From the IMG/VR virus record IMGVR_UViG_3300009609_000056, positions 1 to 25,210 of that record: a stretch of DNA of 25,210 bases. One strand, 5' to 3'. A program made the translations under genes and the position numbers. Position 1 is the stretch's first letter. The number at the start of each line of letters is the position of its first letter. This document shows positions 6,340 to 19,631 of the stretch, piece after piece. This stretch comes from a virus. Under the pieces are notes generated by a model, which saw only the letters and a program-made list of their open reading frames with translations, did no database searches and had not been told where the DNA came from.

Positions 6340-6762
6340 TCAGTTCTCCCGGTTCTTCTCGAGCGACTTCTTCATCTCGAGCTGCTTCCTCCGCGCCTCG
6401 GGATCGACGCGGGCGTTCGACTCCTCGAGCATGCCGCGGAGGTCCTCGAGGTCTGCGCCCTCGTGGTCCTCGCCGGCCAGTTGCCGGACCATGCGCGCGA
6501 GGTTCGGCTTCTTCTCGCGGAACCCCTTCACCAGGGCCGCGACCTCCGCCGCGCTTTGCTTCCGCATGAGCGACACCTCGAGCTCCTTCCCGTCGAAGAC
6601 CGTCTGAAGCTCCCGGAGGGTCAGCCTCCAGAATTCATCCGGCTTCAGGCCACAGAGCCCGCAGGCGAGGCGTTCGAGTTCTCGCCAGTCGGTAACGAGC
6701 CGGCCTTCTTCAGCATCTCCCTCACGTCCGGAGGCAGGGACTCCAGCACGTCCTCCACGTTT
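6340..6762 (-). CDS. Tail assembly chaperone, -1 frameshift extension (GT-like part)
   Basis: From the A9 run at 6760-6768 down to the stop at 6340 the -1 frame relative to the upstream chaperone is open without interruption (about 140 codons). It encodes RLVTDWRELERL, then CGLKPDEFWRLTLREL, which looks like the phage tail assembly chaperone (TAC) family pattern, then a charged helical tail ending KKSLEKNREN. Most of it has no suitable start of its own. The first in-frame ATG is at 6576, inside the domain, so it is best explained as the C-terminal part of a fusion of about 263 residues made by -1 frameshifting, like lambda gpGT. That fusion would load onto the tape measure protein while the unshifted product binds tail tube subunits. 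A separate start at 6576 would give only 78 residues. Confidence 0.75.
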   Translation of the reverse strand, partial: KRGGRAGVPASGREGDAEEGRLVTDWRELERLACGLCGLKPDEFWRLTLRELQTVFDGKELEVSLMRKQSAAEVAALVKGFREKKPNLARMVRQLAGEDHEGADLEDLRGMLEESNARVDPEARRKQLEMKKSLEKNREN

Positions 6763-7130
6763 TTTTTTGAGGCCTCGGGGACGGTTCCCTTGATCGCCTC
6801 CATGACCTTCGTAAGGACGTAGGTCAGTTTCCCCATGAGGTCATCAGGCGGCGCCTGGTCGATCAGGTCGCCGGCCTGGCGGATGGTGAGATGCTCGTCC
6901 TCGTGGAGGAGCGCCGCCCAGAGGAGGGCGCGCGTCTCGCGGAAGCCCAGGACAGAGCCGAGCCGCATGAGGTTCCCGCCGGCCGAGGCGGCCTTGGTGA
7001 AGGTCTCGTAGAGGAGCGTCAGCGCTGGCTTCCCGTACTCCGTCTCGAAGCTCGCCAGCCCGTTCGCGTCGAACTTGAGCGTGCGTTCCTTGTCGAGCAT
7101 GATCGCCACCTCGCCGCGGAACTTGTTCAT
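6645..7130 (-). CDS. Tail assembly chaperone, unshifted product (G-like)
   Basis: 161 residues. The N-terminus (EVAIMLDKERTLKFDANGLASFETEYGK) is typical of tail assembly chaperones that follow the tail tube gene in siphophages. A run of nine A lies at codons 121-124 (Ser-Lys-Lys-Asn), giving the heptamer A AAA AAC in frame. Ribosomes that do not slip make the 161-residue protein; those that slip by -1 enter the frame of the next feature. The start at 7130 has a CAGGAG ribosome site and is preceded by a dyad pair. Gene order (tube, chaperone, tape measure) supports the call. The known stoichiometry in lambda is a few percent shifted product; here the rate cannot be read. Confidence 0.85.
   Translation of the reverse strand: MNKFRGEVAIMLDKERTLKFDANGLASFETEYGKPALTLLYETFTKAASAGGNLMRLGSVLGFRETRALLWAALLHEDEHLTIRQAGDLIDQAPPDDLMGKLTYVLTKVMEAIKGTVPEASKKNVEDVLESLPPDVREMLKKAGSLPTGENSNASPAGSVA
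6757..6770 (-). other. Slippery A9 site for -1 frameshift in tail chaperone
   Basis: Coding strand TC-A9-CGT. Zero-frame codons are TCA AAA AAA AAC, which contains the heptamers A AAA AAA and A AAA AAC. The -1 frame is open on both sides of it to a TAC-like domain. In G+C-rich DNA a nine-base A run is rare; the only other one in the window is in the portal gene. Confidence 0.8.
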
Positions 7131-12327: not shown

Positions 12328-12627
12328 TTACCTGATGCTACCCCTTACAGCGATTGCAAGGAGGGCGTTCTGATTTTCCTCCTGTCGGAGGAGGTATCGG
12401 TTGGTCGCCTTGCAGGTCCTACAGCGCCGCTCGAAAATCTTCCCGTCCCACGCCCCGATCGGGCGGTCGCAGGTCAGGCAAAGGATGGCGCCGTGGCCGC
12501 CTGTCTTCAGGCTGAAATGGGTCAGGAGCTTACAGGGCCGGCAGAAAAGCTCGAGTTCCCCGGTCTCCTCCTCGATCCTCCCGAGGAGCCGCTGGCAGCT
12601 TTTCTGGGGGCAATGGATATCCTTCAT
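12328..12627 (-). CDS. Com-like double zinc-ribbon protein
   Basis: 99 residues from ATG 12627 (overlaps the protease stop as ATGA; a longer frame to 12705 lies inside the protease). Two Cys4 clusters are visible: C6/C11 with C29/C32, and C50/C53 with C69/C72. The first half (HCPQKSCQRLLGRI then ELELFCRPCKLLTHF) resembles phage Mu Com and its relatives, small zinc-ribbon proteins; Mu Com binds an mRNA hairpin and activates translation of mom. The second cluster is a similar ribbon. Nucleic-acid binding is likely from the family; RNA binding in this phage is inference. The gene is coupled to the capsid protease and followed by the scaffold. Confidence 0.75.
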   Translation of the reverse strand: MKDIHCPQKSCQRLLGRIEEETGELELFCRPCKLLTHFSLKTGGHGAILCLTCDRPIGAWDGKIFERRCRTCKATNRYLLRQEENQNALLAIAVRGSIR

Positions 12628-14108
12628 GCCCGTGCCGCCCACCCCTGGATGGAGAATCCGTTCAGGTCGCCGCTCTTGATGAGCGCCCAGGCCTGGGGCT
12701 CCCACACGACCCCGAGAAGCCAGTCACCGGGCGAGATGACCTGGCCGCCGATGGTCGTCTTCTCGAACCGCCAGACGTAGCTTTCGACGACCCGGCCGGC
12801 GCCCTCCGTCCCGAAGCGGTGCATGATCCCGACCTTCGGGTCCTGCATGAACTGCCACGCGGCTTTCTCGAGCTCCTCGGCGTCCGCGTACTCGCCGTGC
12901 GCGTCCACGCTGTTCGCCGGGTAGGCGACCCCGAGCGAAAAGCGCTGCTCGTCCGCGCGCTTCACGAGTCGGTAGCTCGCGAGCTTGTCGGTCGCCTTCT
13001 TGACGTCGACCAGGCGGTGCCCGCGCGAGAGGTTCAGGGGATCCCGCGGCAGGATCGCGCGCGTGACCCCGCGGGCCCGGAGGATCTCGAGCGACTTCAC
13101 GAGCTCCTGGCGCGCGGCCCACGGCGCCTGATCCTCGGTCCATGCCGCGGTCCAGGCCTCGCCGGTCCGCTCGAAGAGGAGCCGGCCGGGGGCGAAGCGC
13201 TCGCCCTGGAGGATGACCTCGACCGCGTCCTCGGCTGCGTGCCCGAGGATGTAGGTCCCCGCGCCCTTCGTCTTCCACCGGGCGCGCTTCCCGCTGCCGT
13301 CCCTGAAGGCGGGAACGCCGGGGGCCTTCGGCCACGCGGCGGCCGTCGGGGCGGGGAACGTCCCGCCCCTGATCCCGAAGCCCCAGGGGAGCGGCCCGTC
13401 GAAATGGAGGAGGAGGGAGGACGTCTCCCAGGCATTCCCCTTCCGGAGCTCCTTCGTCTGGACGCAGAAGGCCCGCGGGTGCCCGCGCCGCGGCATGGCC
13501 TCGTGCCAGTGCGCCGCCCATTCTTCGGCGACGATCTTTCCCTTCGCTATGTCGAGACGCTCCTCGAGGGGGCGGCCGCGGAGGCGGAACTCCTCGCGCA
13601 CGTCGCCGGTCGCCACGAGGATCCGGTCGAAGCGAAGCGCGATCGGCAGGGTACGCTCCGGGCCCGGCTCGCCCGGCTTCACGTAGGCGAGGGTGATGTG
13701 CGGCGTGAAGCCGTGATCATTCTTCGGGTAGGCGCCCTCGTACTCGAGCTCGCGCACCAGGTCCTCGCGGAGGCCCGCGAGCTCGGGCGAGTCGAAGGAG
13801 GCGTAGATGACCTCGTCGCCGTCCGAGGTAGTCGAGGCGTCGAACCGGCCGATGCCGCTGATCTGGCCTGCGAGCTGGGGCCGGCGGGCGGTGAACGCCT
13901 GGACGCAGGCCAGGGTCCGCTCGACCGTCTCCTGCGCCAGGTCCTCGAGCTTGCCGAGGTAGCACAAGGTCATGTGCAGGTCCTCCGGCGGCTCTCCGCC
14001 TGGGATGGCGATCGCCTGGGCGACGTCCTCGGGGAGGAGGAAGGCGACCATGAGCCCGCGGCCAGCGGACTTCGCGAGAGCGCTTTTCCTTTCGACGGCA
14101 ACCGGCAT
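12624..14108 (-). CDS. 2H phosphoesterase fused to XkdF-like capsid maturation protease
   Basis: 494 residues from ATG 14108, which overlaps the previous stop (TGATG). Domain 1 (about 18-180) is a 2H phosphoesterase: two H-x-T motifs, H45-M-T47 (EDLHMTLCYLG) and H137-I-T139 (GFTPHITLAYV), spaced as in 2'-5' RNA ligase/cyclic phosphodiesterase proteins. Domain 3 (about 385-494) matches the XkdF-type phage serine protease: RFSLGVAYPANSVDAHGEYA, H430 in GIMHRFG, GDWLLGVVWEP and S486 in NGFSIQGW. The middle (about 205-370, with LLLHFDGPLPWGFGIRGG and KGAGTYILG) is not firmly recognised; it faintly recalls LigD-like phosphoesterase segments. Protease location upstream of scaffold and capsid fits head maturation. 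The phosphoesterase may be packaged with the head. Confidence 0.85.
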   Translation of the reverse strand: MPVAVERKSALAKSAGRGLMVAFLLPEDVAQAIAIPGGEPPEDLHMTLCYLGKLEDLAQETVERTLACVQAFTARRPQLAGQISGIGRFDASTTSDGDEVIYASFDSPELAGLREDLVRELEYEGAYPKNDHGFTPHITLAYVKPGEPGPERTLPIALRFDRILVATGDVREEFRLRGRPLEERLDIAKGKIVAEEWAAHWHEAMPRRGHPRAFCVQTKELRKGNAWETSSLLLHFDGPLPWGFGIRGGTFPAPTAAAWPKAPGVPAFRDGSGKRARWKTKGAGTYILGHAAEDAVEVILQGERFAPGRLLFERTGEAWTAAWTEDQAPWAARQELVKSLEILRARGVTRAILPRDPLNLSRGHRLVDVKKATDKLASYRLVKRADEQRFSLGVAYPANSVDAHGEYADAEELEKAAWQFMQDPKVGIMHRFGTEGAGRVVESYVWRFEKTTIGGQVISPGDWLLGVVWEPQAWALIKSGDLNGFSIQGWAARA

Positions 14109-14452
14109 CAGAACTCCTGCTCGTACCCACGGAGGTTGAGCGTCAGGACCACGGCCGCGCCGCCGGCGATGCACACGAGCTTCGCGTCGGCGCCCTTCGT
14201 CATCGCGATCGGGTCGGTGAACTGGTGAGTCGCCTTCGTCCCGCGCGGCGCCGCCGTCCCGATCCAGTCCTTCCAGATCGTGGTCGAGCCGTCGACGAGG
14301 AGGATCGAGATGTCATTCACGGCCGCGGCGCCGGAGATGACAACCGAGTACCCGGTGACGAAGTAGCGCTTCCCGGCGACGCCGGTCTTCGTCAGGGTGA
14401 GCGCGGCGTTCACGCCGCTGTCGCCAGTCAGATTGAAGCGGGTCGAGATCAT
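14108..14452 (-). CDS. Small beta-rich virion protein
   Basis: 114 residues from ATG 14452, which overlaps the MuF-like stop (ATGA). Beta-rich with short loops: RFNLTGDSGVNAALTLTKTG, KRYFVTGYSVVISGAAAV, SILLVDGSTTIWKD and a closing AVVLTLNLRGYEQEF. No catalytic motif is seen. The strand pattern suggests a jelly-roll or sandwich like phage decoration or head-fibre proteins. Position between head morphogenesis and protease genes supports a head role; the exact function is not known. Confidence 0.75.
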   Translation of the reverse strand: MISTRFNLTGDSGVNAALTLTKTGVAGKRYFVTGYSVVISGAAAVNDISILLVDGSTTIWKDWIGTAAPRGTKATHQFTDPIAMTKGADAKLVCIAGGAAVVLTLNLRGYEQEF

Positions 14453-15171
14453 GGTTTTGTCCTGTAGACCTGCGTGCACCTGCACTGGATGGTGTTCCCC
14501 GCGCTGGCCCCGAGGCTCGCGTCGCCGGGGAACATGAGCTGCTCTGTCCTTCCCTGGTACGTGACCTGGTGCGGCTTCTCCGCGTCCACCCAGACCTCCT
14601 TGGCGTCATAGGCGGAGTGGGCACTCCTCACGCGGTCGTCGTGGAGAGAGACCCACTGCTTCTCAAGCTGGAGGCCCACCGCATTCCCGGCCGCCACCGC
14701 GCCCTCCTGGCCCCCGAGGTTCGACGCGGCGATGACCTCCGTCCGCGCGATGACCTCCGCGCGGTTCGGGATGATCTCTGAGCCGTAGAGACCATCGATG
14801 CGGTTCGCGAGCTCGTTGATCCCCTCGCCGGCGTCGACGCCGATCTTGAGCTCGCGGCGGATGGAGTCCCGCTGAGTCCCAGTGATTTGAACGATCCTCG
14901 TGCCCGCCTCGCGGCGGAGGTAACGCGAGACGCGTTCTTGCCAGCGGTCCCTGATCTTCTCCGCCGCGAGCGATCCACCGAGGAAATCGACGAGCGCCTC
15001 GGTGAAGCCCGGGTCGTCGTCGATGGCCTTCGTCACGCGGCCGCTCCTGTCGGCGAGGTCCTGGAGCGTGGCGATCGCGAACTCGTCGACGGTCTCGGCG
15101 TACGTCTCGGCGTACCACCGCTCGAGCTCAGGCCGCATCGCGAAGAGGGCGGTTTCTACACGGGCCATCAT
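14449..15171 (-). CDS. MuF / SPP1 gp7-like minor head protein
   Basis: 240 residues from ATG 15171, which overlaps the portal stop (ATGA). The C-terminal half carries the family hallmarks: VIARTEVIAASNLGGQEGA, then WVSLHDDRVRSAHSAYD, a PGDASLGASAGNTIQCRC segment and the CRC motif near the end. Proteins of this family bind the portal, are packaged in small copy number and in some phages enter the cell with the DNA. The same frame stays open upstream through the A9 run in the portal gene, so a -1 frameshift there would yield a portal-MuF fusion. The frame extends back to 15552, but an ATG there would overlap the portal by almost 400 bases, so the 15171 start is preferred for the free form. Confidence 0.88.
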   Translation of the reverse strand: MMARVETALFAMRPELERWYAETYAETVDEFAIATLQDLADRSGRVTKAIDDDPGFTEALVDFLGGSLAAEKIRDRWQERVSRYLRREAGTRIVQITGTQRDSIRRELKIGVDAGEGINELANRIDGLYGSEIIPNRAEVIARTEVIAASNLGGQEGAVAAGNAVGLQLEKQWVSLHDDRVRSAHSAYDAKEVWVDAEKPHQVTYQGRTEQLMFPGDASLGASAGNTIQCRCTQVYRTKP

Positions 15172-16823
15172 GGTTCCGAGGCCCCCGCCGCGACGGACCT
15201 GATCGGCCACTTTTTTTTTGACGCGCGGAAGATTCGCTGAAGGTCGGGTCGCGCACGGGATACGTGCTTCTCGCGCTTCTTGTCCGTGTCGGCCGCCTTC
15301 TCGCGGCGCTCCGCCTTCCCCGGAGCCTTCACCTCCGTTGGTTTCTTCTCCTCGTTTCGCTCCGAAGAAGTAGCCCCCGGCTCCGGTGGAGCGGTCTCTG
15401 TCTCTGGAGGCGTGCGCGGCGGCTCCACGGGCTCTCCGAGGGGGACGCCCTGGAAATAGTGGAGGTCGAGGACCTTCTCGTCCTTCCTCGACATGCGGAG
15501 CTTCTCGCGTGCCTCGTTCGGCGAGAGGATCCCGAGGCGGACTCCCTCCCACGCGGCGTCGTGCTCAAGCTCGAGCTGCTCCCAGTCGAGATCCTTGAGC
15601 ACGAACCGGATGCCCCTCGCCTTCAGGTCCAGGCCTCGCTCCCCGAAGAGGGTGCGCTCGAGGCGGCTCTCAATGAGCGCCTGCCCGGGTTCGATCGCGC
15701 CGTATCGGTAGGCCCGGAGCATCTCGCGCGCGGAGGACCCGCCCAGGGATCCGACCACTGCCAGGCCGATCCGGTAGGGCGGCACGCAGTGAACCATGAG
15801 GAACTCTTTCGACAGGCCGTCGCTTCGTTCCCCGAAGTGCCCCTCGCGGTGCCCGACGTTCGACGCGCGGAGGGGCTCCACGTTGACGGAGCTCGTGGGG
15901 CCGCCACTCGTGACGATGTCCGTGTGCGCGCGGCCGCGTGCCTCCGCGAGCTTCTCCCTGATCTTGGCCGCGCTGGCGTCGGCAAGCGCCGCGTCGTCCG
16001 CCGCGACGTGGATGATCGTGTCCACGAGGCCGGAGGACTCGAAGAAGCTGATGTTGTAATGGCGGATCGCGGCGAGCTCGGCGCCGGCGGGGAGGACCGC
16101 GAGCCACCGAGGGACGCCGTAGTATCGAGGCGAGCGGTAGGAGTAGCGGCGGAAGACGATGACCTCGCGCGCCGCGGGCTCCCCCTTCGTGACGTCCCTT
16201 CCGTGTTCCGGATGGATCCTGAGCGGCGAGCCGAACTCGACGAAGTACCGGGTCTGCTCCTCGATGAGCTGGACCCAGATCCCCTTTCGATCCTTCCGCT
16301 TCTGATCCCGCGGGACCGCGCGGAGCGTGTGGGCTGGGATCGGGAAGATGCCCACGATGTCGCCCTCGGGCTTGCCGCCCTTCCGCGCGATCTCCCACGC
16401 CGACCACCCCACGGCCTCGGCCTCCCATCGCGCCTGGTCGAGGAGCTCGCCGAAGGGGAACTGTGGGCAGATCTCGAGGAGGTGCTCGTCTACGGCCTGG
16501 CCGTCCGCGGCCGCCTCGGCGTCCTCCTCATGGCTCTTCTCCTTCTCGCGCGACTCGTAGGTCCAGCCGTGCCCGACCGAGTCCACGGTCTTCGCGTCGA
16601 TGCACGCCGCGTGGACGGAATTCTCCTCCGCGAGGAGGAGGAGGCGCGCTGGATCGAACGGCGGCTCCACAGCCCGGTCCTGCTGGTAGAGGCCGCTGAA
16701 GTCGACCTCGAGCTGTTGCGACTCGACGTCATCCGCTGGCTCAGCCGCCTTCGAGACGACGTAAACGCCCGGCCCTCTCTCTTCTCGCGTCGCTCTGGTC
16801 TTACGCGTCTTCGTCCGGGCCAA
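15168..16823 (-). CDS. Portal protein
   Basis: 551 residues from a TTG at 16823; an ATG at 17015 is possible but would run through the dyad pair and into the divergent plus-strand gene. Portal proteins form the dodecameric DNA channel. Visible family features are DFSGLYQQDRAVEPPFDP, SVHAACIDAKTVDSVGHGW, EAVGWSAWEIARKGGK, the PIPAHTLRAVPRDQK stretch and a late YRSPRYYGVPRWLAVLP, followed by helices in the stem and crown region, ending with an acidic/basic tail. They fit the PBSX/HK97-like portal class. The last 14 codons follow an A9 slippery run that could fuse this protein to the next one. Its neighbours (terminase upstream, MuF downstream) confirm the call. Confidence 0.88.
   Translation of the reverse strand: MARTKTRKTRATREERGPGVYVVSKAAEPADDVESQQLEVDFSGLYQQDRAVEPPFDPARLLLLAEENSVHAACIDAKTVDSVGHGWTYESREKEKSHEEDAEAAADGQAVDEHLLEICPQFPFGELLDQARWEAEAVGWSAWEIARKGGKPEGDIVGIFPIPAHTLRAVPRDQKRKDRKGIWVQLIEEQTRYFVEFGSPLRIHPEHGRDVTKGEPAAREVIVFRRYSYRSPRYYGVPRWLAVLPAGAELAAIRHYNISFFESSGLVDTIIHVAADDAALADASAAKIREKLAEARGRAHTDIVTSGGPTSSVNVEPLRASNVGHREGHFGERSDGLSKEFLMVHCVPPYRIGLAVVGSLGGSSAREMLRAYRYGAIEPGQALIESRLERTLFGERGLDLKARGIRFVLKDLDWEQLELEHDAAWEGVRLGILSPNEAREKLRMSRKDEKVLDLHYFQGVPLGEPVEPPRTPPETETAPPEPGATSSERNEEKKPTEVKAPGKAERREKAADTDKKREKHVSRARPDLQRIFRASKKKWPIRSVAAGASEP
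15208..15221 (-). other. Slippery A9 site near portal 3' end
   Basis: Coding strand TC-A9-GTG at 15211-15219. Zero-frame codons are TCA AAA AAA AAG, which contains A AAA AAG, the most efficient -1 heptamer known in E. coli. The -1 frame continues without a stop into the MuF-like gene (VADQVRRGGGLGT, then its ATG). The normal portal stop is 14 codons downstream. Confidence 0.7.
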
Positions 16824-16842
16824 GGTCCCAACCTGTTGCGGT

Positions 16843-16871
16843 GGACGCCGGTCCGCATGGGACTCCGATCC
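16843..16871 (-). promoter_or_regulatory. Start-associated dyad pair upstream of portal gene
   Basis: Plus-strand copies GGACGCCGGTCC at 16843-16854 and GGACTCCGATCC at 16860-16871, 17 bases apart. They sit about 20 bases before the TTG at 16823, at the same distance as in other genes, which is part of the reason for choosing that start. Confidence 0.65.
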
Positions 16872-16974
16872 GAGTGGTGTCGATTCAGGCCGCCACCCCT
16901 CATGTTCGCCGAGAGCACAAATTGCCGCAGGGGTAGCGCAAGCCGATGACGTTTGGGCTACCCTGGAAGGTGGA
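16872..16974. promoter_or_regulatory. Divergent control region with inverted repeat
   Basis: This is the gap between portal (minus) and the plus-strand island. It holds a seven-base inverted repeat, GGGTAGC at 16931-16937 and GCTACCC at 16957-16963, with a 19-base spacer, ending 11 bases before the ATG at 16975. A repressor operator is a reasonable reading, the XRE protein at the island's end being the obvious candidate ligand. No confident -35/-10 pair is visible for either direction, though a promoter must lie here for the island. Confidence 0.45.
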
Positions 16975-17370
16975 ATGAAGAGAGTAGTTAAGCGCCCTGG
17001 AAAAAAGCGGCGCAAAAAGAAGGTCGTGGACCGCTCTGCCGCGATTCGTCGCGAACGGGCCCGCTACGGACCGGGGAATGAAGAGCGCAGGGACCGCAGG
17101 CTCGAAGCCGCGGTCCGGCTGGATGTCGTTGCCCTCTTCACGGGCGAACCCCTCAGAAGCCGCGACGATGCGCGAGTCGTGCAGGTGCTCGAGGCGGCGC
17201 TCGAGGTGGCCCGTCAGCGCTTCTGCGGGTCAAGTAGGCTCAGGCGGATTGGCGGTCCGGAGGAGCTTCGCGAGATCCAGCGGCGGGAGATCGCTCGGCC
17301 GGAGGCGTCGCTGGATTACCCGTGCTATTGTGAGGAGCCGGGCGGAGAAGGATGGGCGGATGACGACTGA
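16975..17370 (+). CDS. Hypothetical basic protein, first gene of plus-strand island
   Basis: 131 residues, not recognised. The N-terminal 30 residues are extremely basic (MKRVVKRPGKKRRKKKVVDR), the middle is helical (LEAAVRLDVVALFTGEPL, ARVVQVLEAALEVARQRF) and the C-terminus is acidic (CEEPGGEGWADDD). The start has a good ribosome site (GGAAGGTGGA directly before ATG). The basic head suggests nucleic acid or ribosome contact, but nothing specific is seen. It overlaps the next gene by 11 bases. Runs of A around 17000 give it somewhat lower G+C than the head genes. Confidence 0.65.
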   Translation: MKRVVKRPGKKRRKKKVVDRSAAIRRERARYGPGNEERRDRRLEAAVRLDVVALFTGEPLRSRDDARVVQVLEAALEVARQRFCGSSRLRRIGGPEELREIQRREIARPEASLDYPCYCEEPGGEGWADDD

Positions 17371-17560
17371 TGACTTCGACAGGATGGCCCGGGCGATCGC
17401 GCGGGGTGTCGTAAAGGCGACAGGCGATGACCCTCACGAGTGCGCGCTCCTCCTTCGCCGGGCGATCGTGTACCTTGAGCGGCGGCACGTCCCGTCGTCG
17501 TGCCAGTCGCAACTCCGAAGGAAGGCTTCGGCGCTGGCTGTAAGCGGAGAAGTACAATGA
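17360..17560 (+). CDS. Hypothetical small helical protein
   Basis: 66 residues from ATG 17360, chosen because GAAGGA lies seven bases before it; the frame is open further upstream to 17078 but that would duplicate the first gene. The sequence starts MTTDDFDRMARAIARGVVKA and continues with helices ECALLLRRAIVYLERRHV, then a basic end. No family is recognised. It is tied by overlaps to both neighbours, so the island is probably one transcript. Confidence 0.6.
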   Translation: MTTDDFDRMARAIARGVVKATGDDPHECALLLRRAIVYLERRHVPSSCQSQLRRKASALAVSGEVQ

Positions 17561-17631
17561 CGTGGCTCTGGTGGATACCAGTCGGCGTGGCGCTTGTCCT
17601 CGTCGTGTGGCTTTGGTGCCAGAAGCCGTGA
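17557..17631 (+). CDS. 24-residue membrane micropeptide
   Basis: A 24-codon frame, ATG 17557 to TGA 17631, encoding a single hydrophobic span (MTWLWWIPVGVALVLVVWLW, then CQKP). The ATG overlaps the preceding stop (ATGA) and its own stop overlaps the next GTG (GTGA), which argues it is translated. Such peptides in phages can be small membrane toxins, lysis regulators or exclusion factors; none is claimed. The four Trp residues near the membrane borders are characteristic of interface anchoring. Confidence 0.55.
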   Translation: MTWLWWIPVGVALVLVVWLWCQKP

Positions 17632-17822
17632 GAACCCCCATCCCATCCGACGAGTTTCATGCGCTTGGCGGGTACTTCGACTTCCAGACCTCCACCTACT
17701 ACTTCACCACGGAGCTGATCGCGAGGCTCCTCGATCTCCAGGTGGAGACCGCCAAGAAGGCCGCGGCCTCACGGGAGGAACTAATCAACCTGATGAGAGA
17801 GGACGCCAGCGCTGATTTTTGA
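17628..17822 (+). CDS. Hypothetical small acidic protein
   Basis: 64 residues from GTG 17628 (GTGA overlap with the micropeptide); an ATG at 17562 would overlap the whole micropeptide. It starts VRTPIPSDEFHALGGYFDFQ, followed by a helical part with TTELIARLLDLQVETAKKAA and ending EELINLMREDASADF. No family is recognised. It precedes the XRE regulator by 12 bases. Confidence 0.6.
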   Translation: MRTPIPSDEFHALGGYFDFQTSTYYFTTELIARLLDLQVETAKKAAASREELINLMREDASADF

Positions 17823-17834
17823 GGAGGGCGATCG

Positions 17835-18098
17835 ATGGCGAAGGACGATGACGAGCTCGTGGATGTCTTCAAGACCGAGTGGTACCGGAAGATGAAGGCT
17901 ACCCTGACGCCGGGGCGCGCCCTCCGCGCCTACCGAGAGAACCGCGGCCTGGCCAGGGAGGCCCTTGCGAAGCTGCTCGGTCCCACCGCGCGGAAGACTC
18001 ACGTTGCGGACATGGAAGCCGGACGGCGCGGCATCTCGAAGGAGATGGCGAAGAAGCTGGCGCGGATCCTCGGAGCCCCGGTGGAGAGGTTCCTGTGA
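17835..18098 (+). CDS. XRE/Cro-type helix-turn-helix regulator
   Basis: 87 residues with ribosome site GAGGAGGG before the ATG. The helix-turn-helix lies at about residues 28-85: GRALRAYRENRGLAREALAKLLG, then HVADMEAGRRGISKEMAKKLARIL and GAPVERFL at the end, the normal Cro/CI DNA-binding pattern, with no extra domain. It would repress or activate a phage promoter; the inverted repeat at 16931-16963 in front of its own transcript is a natural target (autoregulation, inferred). Its stop lies only six bases from the convergent stop of the large terminase, so transcripts from the two strands overlap unless ended elsewhere. Confidence 0.85.
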   Translation: MAKDDDELVDVFKTEWYRKMKATLTPGRALRAYRENRGLAREALAKLLGPTARKTHVADMEAGRRGISKEMAKKLARILGAPVERFL

Positions 18099-18104
18099 TG
18101 GCCC

Positions 18105-19631
18105 CTATCCCTCCCGCGGGTCCCGCCACTCGTCGTCCTCCCGAGCCTTCTCCCCGTACCTCGTAGTCACCGCGCCCACGTAGCTGATCCCGTCCTTCGG
18201 GCGTGACACGTACTCGCCGGCCATCGACAGGTTGTCCACCTGGTCGTCGTGCGCCCCGCGCGGGAAGGTCAGGAGCTCCGACTCGAGCGCGTCGAGCCAC
18301 GGCGCTCCCTGGAGGAAGAACACCGACCCGTTCTCGAGCCGCGCCGCCGGGTTCTGCGCGCGCGAGAACTTGTCCTTGTCCACCTTCACGGAGACGGCCG
18401 GGAGGCTCTGTCGCTTCGCGTACTGCGCGAGGGTTGCCTGGTACTGCGTGCCCTCGATCAGGATCTTCTTCGGGCTCCAGCGCGAGTTCAGGACGTGGAG
18501 GAGCGCGAGCTGGTCCGGGCCCTCGAGCCGCTTCCTCACGACGTCGAGGAGGAGGAGGTCACTCTCCGGAGTCAGCGCCCAGACCATCATGACCGTGAAA
18601 TCGGCGGACGTCTTGAGCGAGATCGCGAGGTCCGCCGTCAAGGACTTCATGCAGTCCACGGCGAGGAAGCGCTTCGGCTCGCCGTCCGGGCGGTGGAGGA
18701 CGTAGGTCCCATCCTCCACGGTGAAGTAGCGGAACGTGGAGCGCTTGAAGAGCGACCCCTCCTCGGGGGCTGGACGCCCCTGGTAGAGAGCCGACCACCA
18801 GTAGGCCGTCTGCGTGCGCTGGATCTGCTCCAGGACCTCCAGGGGGTAGCGCTCAGGCCAGAGCGCCTCGCCCTCGGCGCGGCCGAGCTGGTCGCCCTCC
18901 TCCGCGATCGCCGCGAAGTTGATGTGCTCCCAGGCCTCACCCGTCTGCTTCGCGTGATCGAGGATCCGGCCGGCGAGGTCGTCCTGGTGCCACCGGGTCT
19001 GAATGAGCGCGATGCACCCGTTCGGCTCGAGGCGGGTGTACGCGGTCGAGAGGTACCAGTCCCAGATCGCATCCCGGATGGTCTTCGACCGCGCCTCGAG
19101 GGCGTTCTTGATCGGATCGTCGATGATGAAGACGTCCGCTCCGCGGCCGGTCTGGCTCGCGCGCATTCCGCTCGTCACCATCCCGCCGCGCCGGCCCTCG
19201 ATCCTCCACGCGGCGCGCGCGTGGGTGGAGGGGCTCACGCGGACGCCGAAGACGGATTGCCCGTGGCGGAAGAGGATGTCCCGCGCCTTCTCGCCCCACT
19301 CCGCGGCGAAGCCGGCCTGGTAGCTCGCGAGCATGACCCGCTTGTCTGGGAAGCGCCCGAGGAACCACGCCGGAAAGAACGCGCTCACGGTGTCCGACTT
19401 CCCGTGCCTGGGTGGCATGGTCACGAGGAGGCGACGCGTCCGGCCAGAGGTGACGTCGAGGAGCTTACGTATGAGGGCCTTCAGGTGAGGCGGCTGGCGG
19501 TACCTGTGCCCCATTTCGAGAGCGGCCAGGCCCGCCGGCCCGAGGTAGGCCAGCCGCCGCAAGCTCAACCAGCTCGAGGTAGCGCTCTGCGATGACGGGG
19601 TCGTCGAGGATTCTTTCGGAGAGGGGGTCAT
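18105..19631 (-). CDS. terL: Terminase large subunit
   Basis: 508 residues from ATG 19631. ATPase motifs are clear: Walker A PPRHGKS at 73-79, Walker B VFIIDDP at 167-173 and the coupling motif QTRWHQDDL at 211-219. The nuclease half has D326 (FLAVDCMKS), E393 (LIEGTQYQ) and a late HDDQVDNLS (461-469), which fits the RNase H-like fold. It cuts concatemeric DNA and drives it into the head. The start overlaps the small terminase by 167 bases, unusually long; the first 40 residues look unlike a family N-terminus, so a later start (for example M40, at 19514) is possible. It is followed by the convergent plus-strand island instead of the portal. Confidence 0.92.
   Translation of the reverse strand: MTPSPKESSTTPSSQSATSSWLSLRRLAYLGPAGLAALEMGHRYRQPPHLKALIRKLLDVTSGRTRRLLVTMPPRHGKSDTVSAFFPAWFLGRFPDKRVMLASYQAGFAAEWGEKARDILFRHGQSVFGVRVSPSTHARAAWRIEGRRGGMVTSGMRASQTGRGADVFIIDDPIKNALEARSKTIRDAIWDWYLSTAYTRLEPNGCIALIQTRWHQDDLAGRILDHAKQTGEAWEHINFAAIAEEGDQLGRAEGEALWPERYPLEVLEQIQRTQTAYWWSALYQGRPAPEEGSLFKRSTFRYFTVEDGTYVLHRPDGEPKRFLAVDCMKSLTADLAISLKTSADFTVMMVWALTPESDLLLLDVVRKRLEGPDQLALLHVLNSRWSPKKILIEGTQYQATLAQYAKRQSLPAVSVKVDKDKFSRAQNPAARLENGSVFFLQGAPWLDALESELLTFPRGAHDDQVDNLSMAGEYVSRPKDGISYVGAVTTRYGEKAREDDEWRDPREG

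Follow-up and report, generated by a model that had tools for sequence, protein, structure and literature searches.

Frameshifting in phages is known at tail chaperones. Fusions of the portal protein and a MuF domain in a single gene, which the original prediction mentioned as known from some phages, are found in Geobacillus phage GBK2 and in Microbacterium phage clusters EB and EA3/5/8, and those of the Microbacterium phages have been described as in-frame fusions (PMC7302621). In phage SPP1, the MuF-type protein gp7 enters the procapsid in few copies (PMC6316719). It is of interest how a 12-subunit portal retains so few MuF/gp7 proteins. A run of nine identical bases can generate two forms of a protein from one gene, as in dnaX of Thermus thermophilus, in which transcriptional slippage makes about as much of the long form as of the short one (PMC5009743). 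No report of a portal–MuF fusion reached by frameshift was found among open-licence papers, in keeping with the prediction, which knew of no such case. Here we describe a viral locus in which the portal and MuF appear to form one fusion unit that requires one change of frame at a stretch of nine A's.

Organization of the portal–MuF junction

The analyzed DNA, referred to below as the window, is the linear virus record IMGVR_UViG_3300009609_000056, with a length of 25,210 bases. The features of the portal–MuF junction are:

15168-16823, minus strand: portal gene; its 551-aa zero-frame product consists of the portal, a partial MuF N-terminus, and a 13-aa tail, WPIRSVAAGASEP
14449-15171, minus strand: MuF/gp7-like domain, 240 aa from the ATG at 15171, which overlaps the portal stop as ATGA
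15211-15219, minus strand: run of nine A's (A9), read in the portal frame as TCA AAA AAA AAG (15221-15210)
15210-15317, minus strand: portal-frame codons for KAERREKAADTDKKREKHVSRARPDLQRIFRASKKK, an initial portion of the N-terminal helices of MuF, with a gap-free profile match from model position 6
15172-15210, minus strand: VADQVRRGGGLGT, the 13 codons between the A9 and the MuF ATG, which are decoded in the MuF frame only if a -1 shift has occurred

Inspection of the open reading frames places the start of the portal gene at a TTG at 16823. The portal core is recognized by PF04860 (1.6e-13, residues 139-442) and by the PHROG portal family phrog_12 (4.4e-25), and the MuF core by PF04233 (1.9e-12) and phrog_2468 (1.1e-35). 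The TCA AAA AAA AAG that had been predicted just before the portal stop is present in the portal frame and is followed by 13 sense codons and a TGA that overlaps the MuF ATG. The A9 run contains two slippery heptamers of the form X_XXY_YYZ in zero-frame phase, A_AAA_AAA (15219-15213) and A_AAA_AAG (15216-15210), as in programmed -1 frameshifting; it also has the length of at least nine A or T bases that characterizes transcriptional slippage sites. Joining of the two frames by a -1 shift gives a product of 791 aa from the TTG at 16823, in agreement with the predicted size of about 790 residues, and the junction reads SKKKVADQVR. The junction peptides of the joined product would be FRASKKKVADQVR, whereas the short form ends with the tail given above.

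The -1 frame is open from the A9 into the MuF gene, as predicted. However, we discarded this openness as evidence for a fusion because the GC-rich DNA keeps the -1 frame open back to 15552.

Two observations concern the surroundings of the junction. A single ORF at 12624-14174 combines an RNA-ligase-like domain (phrog_14859, 8e-42, residues 38-193) with a head-maturation-protease domain (phrog_3017, 7e-25, residues 402-514). The gap of about 1.3 kb between the terminase and portal genes (16823-18105) holds no clear structural gene on the minus strand, and a plus-strand ORF within it (16975-17370) opens with a stretch very rich in lysine and arginine.

Rarity of the nine-A run and its second occurrence

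Runs of nine A or T occur twice in the window, at the portal site and in the tail chaperone, where the prediction had placed the only other copy:

6760-6768, minus strand: second A9, the tail-chaperone slip site, TCA AAA AAA AAC, an internal positive control by homology

The chaperone zero frame (6645-7127) matches phrog_2115, and the -1 ORF that follows the A9 (6340-6759) matches Phage_TAC_6 (PF09550, E 3.6e-8). By homology, the chaperone site probably serves as an internal control that an A9 is used for a change of frame in this phage. The chaperone run ends with A_AAA_AAC and the portal run with A_AAA_AAG, so that the nine A's themselves are what the two sites share.

The frequency of the A9 in this genome, with a GC content of 68%, is far above chance. 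No A9 appeared in dinucleotide shuffles of the window, and synonymous-codon reshuffling of its genes, performed with a gene list that included a few doubtful ORFs, gave an expectation of 0.0004 per window. Lysine is encoded by 259 AAG and 18 AAA codons in the genes of the window, and A_AAA_AAN heptamers are confined to the two genes that carry an A9. A curated list of genes contains 16 in-frame AAA codons, of which the two runs account for four, and both runs are preceded by TCA, which accounts for 4% of serine codons.

The MuF domain continues across the slip site

A MuF profile built from 78 relatives, with this phage left out, aligns without a gap to the joined product, from the portal frame through the three lysines of the A9 into the -1 frame. 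The joined product scores 217.8 bits, compared with 199.0 bits for the protein started at the ATG at 15171 and 206.4 bits for the MuF preceded by the zero-frame tail. When the 62 residues on the portal side were shuffled, 217.8 bits was reached in 0 of 2000 trials; shuffling of the 13 -1-frame residues between the A9 and the ATG reached it in 4 of 2000. None of 6000 natural charged 62-residue segments from non-MuF ORFs attained this score, and the best of them was the portal tail of phage psiM2. The same segment was the only one of the 6000 to attain the joined score with the N-terminal profile alone. With that N-terminal piece, the joined product scores 26.4 bits vs about 4-6 bits for either side. 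The MuF frame on its own covers just positions 44-91 of the N-terminal model, whereas the joined product covers the N-terminal region from position 6. Helices ahead of the MuF core are common to fused and split relatives, and here the N-terminal helices and the core would come to lie in one polypeptide only through a frameshift.

As judged from the profile alignment, the slip site lies within the conserved MuF N-terminal helices, not between two complete genes, and use of the ATG at 15171 would yield an N-terminally truncated MuF. The proposal that the A9 joins the portal to MuF is thus well supported as to the fusion itself, since the MuF N-terminus spans the slip site and the most closely related MuF proteins belong to in-frame fusions. 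The accompanying picture of two complete genes linked by a minor event does not hold, because translation in the portal frame terminates within the MuF domain.

The coding signal, calculated as codon log-odds trained on the other genes of the window, points to the portal frame upstream of the A9 and to the -1 frame downstream. Between the A9 and the MuF ATG, the 13 codons score +6.2 bits in the -1 frame, a value reached by about 0.5% of out-of-frame stretches (P about 0.005). In the portal frame they score -0.4 bits, and 2.3% of true coding stretches are as low or lower. Because the signal shifts to the -1 frame at the A9, MuF coding begins there and not first at the ATG. This switch speaks against separate starts for the two genes and is compatible with slippage as well as with an intact A10 frame.

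Portal and MuF genes of related phages

About half of the MuF relatives with a recognizable portal have portal and MuF in a single ORF, and the other half have separate genes, most of which overlap. The nearest MuF relatives are single-ORF fusions: L002 (48-49% identity), L003, and GBK2. In the MuF tree, the MuF of this phage groups with these three with support of 90/86, a placement that is not firm because the branches are long. The portal itself is nearest to portals of the psiM2, PhiF3, and Drs3 type, in which MuF is a separate gene or degenerate, and therefore the case for fusion ancestry rests on the MuF side. Together, the continuity of the MuF domain, the coding switch at the A9, and the single-gene fused relatives indicate that the portal–MuF fusion is very probably a real, ancestral product, for which a -1 shift would be required in this phage.

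Conservation of the A run in related phages, to which the prediction had looked for support, was not observed. No relative has the run at this position, yet the genes are kept, an outcome that the prediction had named as refuting; these relatives, however, arrive at the fusion, or at a MuF complete in its own gene, with no need for a shift. The conservation of the site expected for programmed -1 frameshifting is thus absent among the sampled relatives, the nearest of which is only about 49% identical. None of the relatives with a clear N-terminal match has a frame break in the MuF domain, whose N-terminus and core are read in the same frame. The linkers of the fused relatives show no excess of slip heptamers (23 seen vs 22 expected). 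Searches by portal or capsid protein gave no close relatives, and the terminase is at best 48-49% identical to its matches. The pattern TCAAAAAAAAAGTGG was too common in viral contigs, and the search with it produced no MuF-bearing locus.

One other contig, L028, has the heptamer T_TTT_TTT in phase at the end of its portal gene (L028:2557-2623) and MuF in the -1 frame. The MuF frame lacks an ATG, GTG, or TTG until 36 nt beyond the portal stop, and MuF started from the first such codon scores 194.5 vs 211.7 bits, a loss of 17. L028 may thus encode a second portal–MuF fusion made by slippage. However, T7 is not rare in the L028 genome, its sister L024/L295 (66% identical) has a normal overlapping ATG, and it is possible that the frame break is a T7/T8 error.

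In psiM2 (L043:4200-5375, ORF10/ORF11), the C-terminal tail of the portal weakly resembles the N-terminal helices of MuF (11 bits). The product of ORF11, which carries a hypothetical annotation, is a degenerate MuF (PF04233 E 0.005, below the cut-off). This arrangement suggests an old fused-then-split organization in archaeal viruses. The MuF ORFs of L216, L251, L265, and L078 are 625-1349 aa long and have long stretches past the MuF core; MuF proteins with extra C-terminal domains are a known layout.

Possible mechanism of slippage at the portal A9

The explanation that we favor, and regard as reasonably probable, is that the portal and MuF form one fusion unit with a single frame step at the A9 inside the MuF N-terminal helices, and that slippage yields the 791-aa fusion. 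Normal decoding would stop 14 codons past the A9 and give a short portal that includes roughly 36 residues from the N-terminus of MuF. The fusion would result from slippage on the run, by a ribosomal -1 shift on A_AAA_AAG or A_AAA_AAA, by insertion of one A by RNA polymerase, or by both. That slippage occurs and is selected at this site we infer from the sequence features described above; it would determine how many of the portal subunits, probably 12, have an inward-facing MuF domain. If SPP1 gp7 is taken as an analogy, the number of MuF domains per portal ring would be limited.

A_AAA_AAG ranks in the top three heptamers for efficiency in Escherichia coli when stimulators are present (PMC4066793), but it is not clearly the strongest, which the prediction had stated. 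A_AAA_AAC, at which the chaperone run ends, is inefficient as a ribosomal heptamer in E. coli (PMC4066793), and runs of nine A or T suffice for efficient polymerase slippage in bacteria (PMC5009743). Because the two sites share the nine A's while A_AAA_AAC is inefficient for ribosomes, the comparison leans slightly toward polymerase slippage. A structure that could stimulate ribosomal slippage is located downstream:

15123-15205, minus strand: candidate stimulatory hairpin that starts 5 nt past the heptamer and encloses the portal stop and the MuF ATG

The hairpin has a minimum free energy of -41.7 kcal/mol (z -1.77), matched by 10 of 200 shuffles. Among stretches of the strand, it ranks in the best 5% at lengths of 50 and 90 nt, and at 26% and 19% at 60 and 75 nt, respectively, and it is therefore only modestly unusual.

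Alternative explanations

Two further points count against the fusion unit: the ATGA start that overlaps the portal stop, as in separate coupled genes, and the origin of the sequence in a single metagenome contig, where an A10 misread as A9 would conceal an ordinary in-frame fusion. Such an assembly or sequencing error would make the gene similar to those of GBK2 and L002, and we consider it rather unlikely. Homopolymers are the usual place of such errors, the closest relatives by MuF have in-frame fusions, and the -1-frame coding signal starts at the A9, with the portal frame weak afterwards (-0.4 bits, 2% of true coding). The frame break is also unique among the surveyed relatives; however, the same survey implies that such errors are rare in these sequences. 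Moreover, the chaperone A9 was called in the same contig with the length required for frameshifting there, and the remaining large structural ORFs are intact. By codon use, an A10 read in frame would be less likely still, with three AAA codons at 6.5% each, and it too would be prone to slippage, leading to truncated portals, so that the oddity of the A run would remain.

It is improbable that the locus consists of two separately translated genes, a portal with a MuF N-terminal piece and a MuF core translationally coupled at the ATGA (ATG 15171), with an incidental A9. Many split relatives have an ATGA overlap too, and psiM2 has the weakly MuF-like portal tail and a separate gene for its degenerate MuF core. 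Nevertheless, split relatives retain the N-terminal helices in the MuF gene, and here the 13 codons before the ATG look coding in the -1 frame and match the family (4/2000). The MuF ATG lacks a strong Shine-Dalgarno sequence, and the A9 is far from chance. The last observation also bears on a reading that we consider slightly less probable still, in which a fused gene was disrupted by the true loss of one base and the A run acts as a savior tract, restoring enough of the fusion to be tolerated but not selected for a ratio. Slippage-rescued pseudo-pseudogenes have been reported (PMC10986495; review PMC5009743), and a recent event would be consistent with the site being absent from all relatives, but the existence of a run made of the rare codons AAA and TCA in a genome with 68% GC would be left unexplained.

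Comparison with known systems

Beyond the fusion unit itself, we tentatively suggest, with less confidence, that programmed slippage at an A9 element shared with the chaperone makes mixed portal rings, in which a set share of subunits has a covalently attached MuF, and that L028 is an independent second instance. If so, a covalent fusion made by slippage would be a direct means to set the number of MuF domains per portal, and the portal would join the small set of phage structural genes for which recoding is known. For annotation, the locus shows that calling a MuF gene from the first ATG can leave out its N-terminus.

Like GBK2 and the Microbacterium phages of clusters EB and EA3/5/8, this phage would have both domains in one polypeptide, and the MuF domain of GBK2 groups with its own. 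However, in those phages the fusion is one unbroken ORF that places MuF on every portal subunit, whereas here a -1 shift is needed. In SPP1, the gp6 portal and gp7 are products of separate genes and associate non-covalently, unlike the joined product. Tail chaperones of the lambda gpG/gpGT type likewise have their slip site toward the 3' end of a structural gene and are made in short and extended forms, and the chaperone of this phage has the same TCA-A9 as its portal gene; the genes are different, and the portal–MuF junction falls inside a conserved domain. The dnaX gene of T. thermophilus likewise uses a run of nine, but its zero frame encodes the long form and slippage produces the short one, the reverse of the arrangement proposed here.
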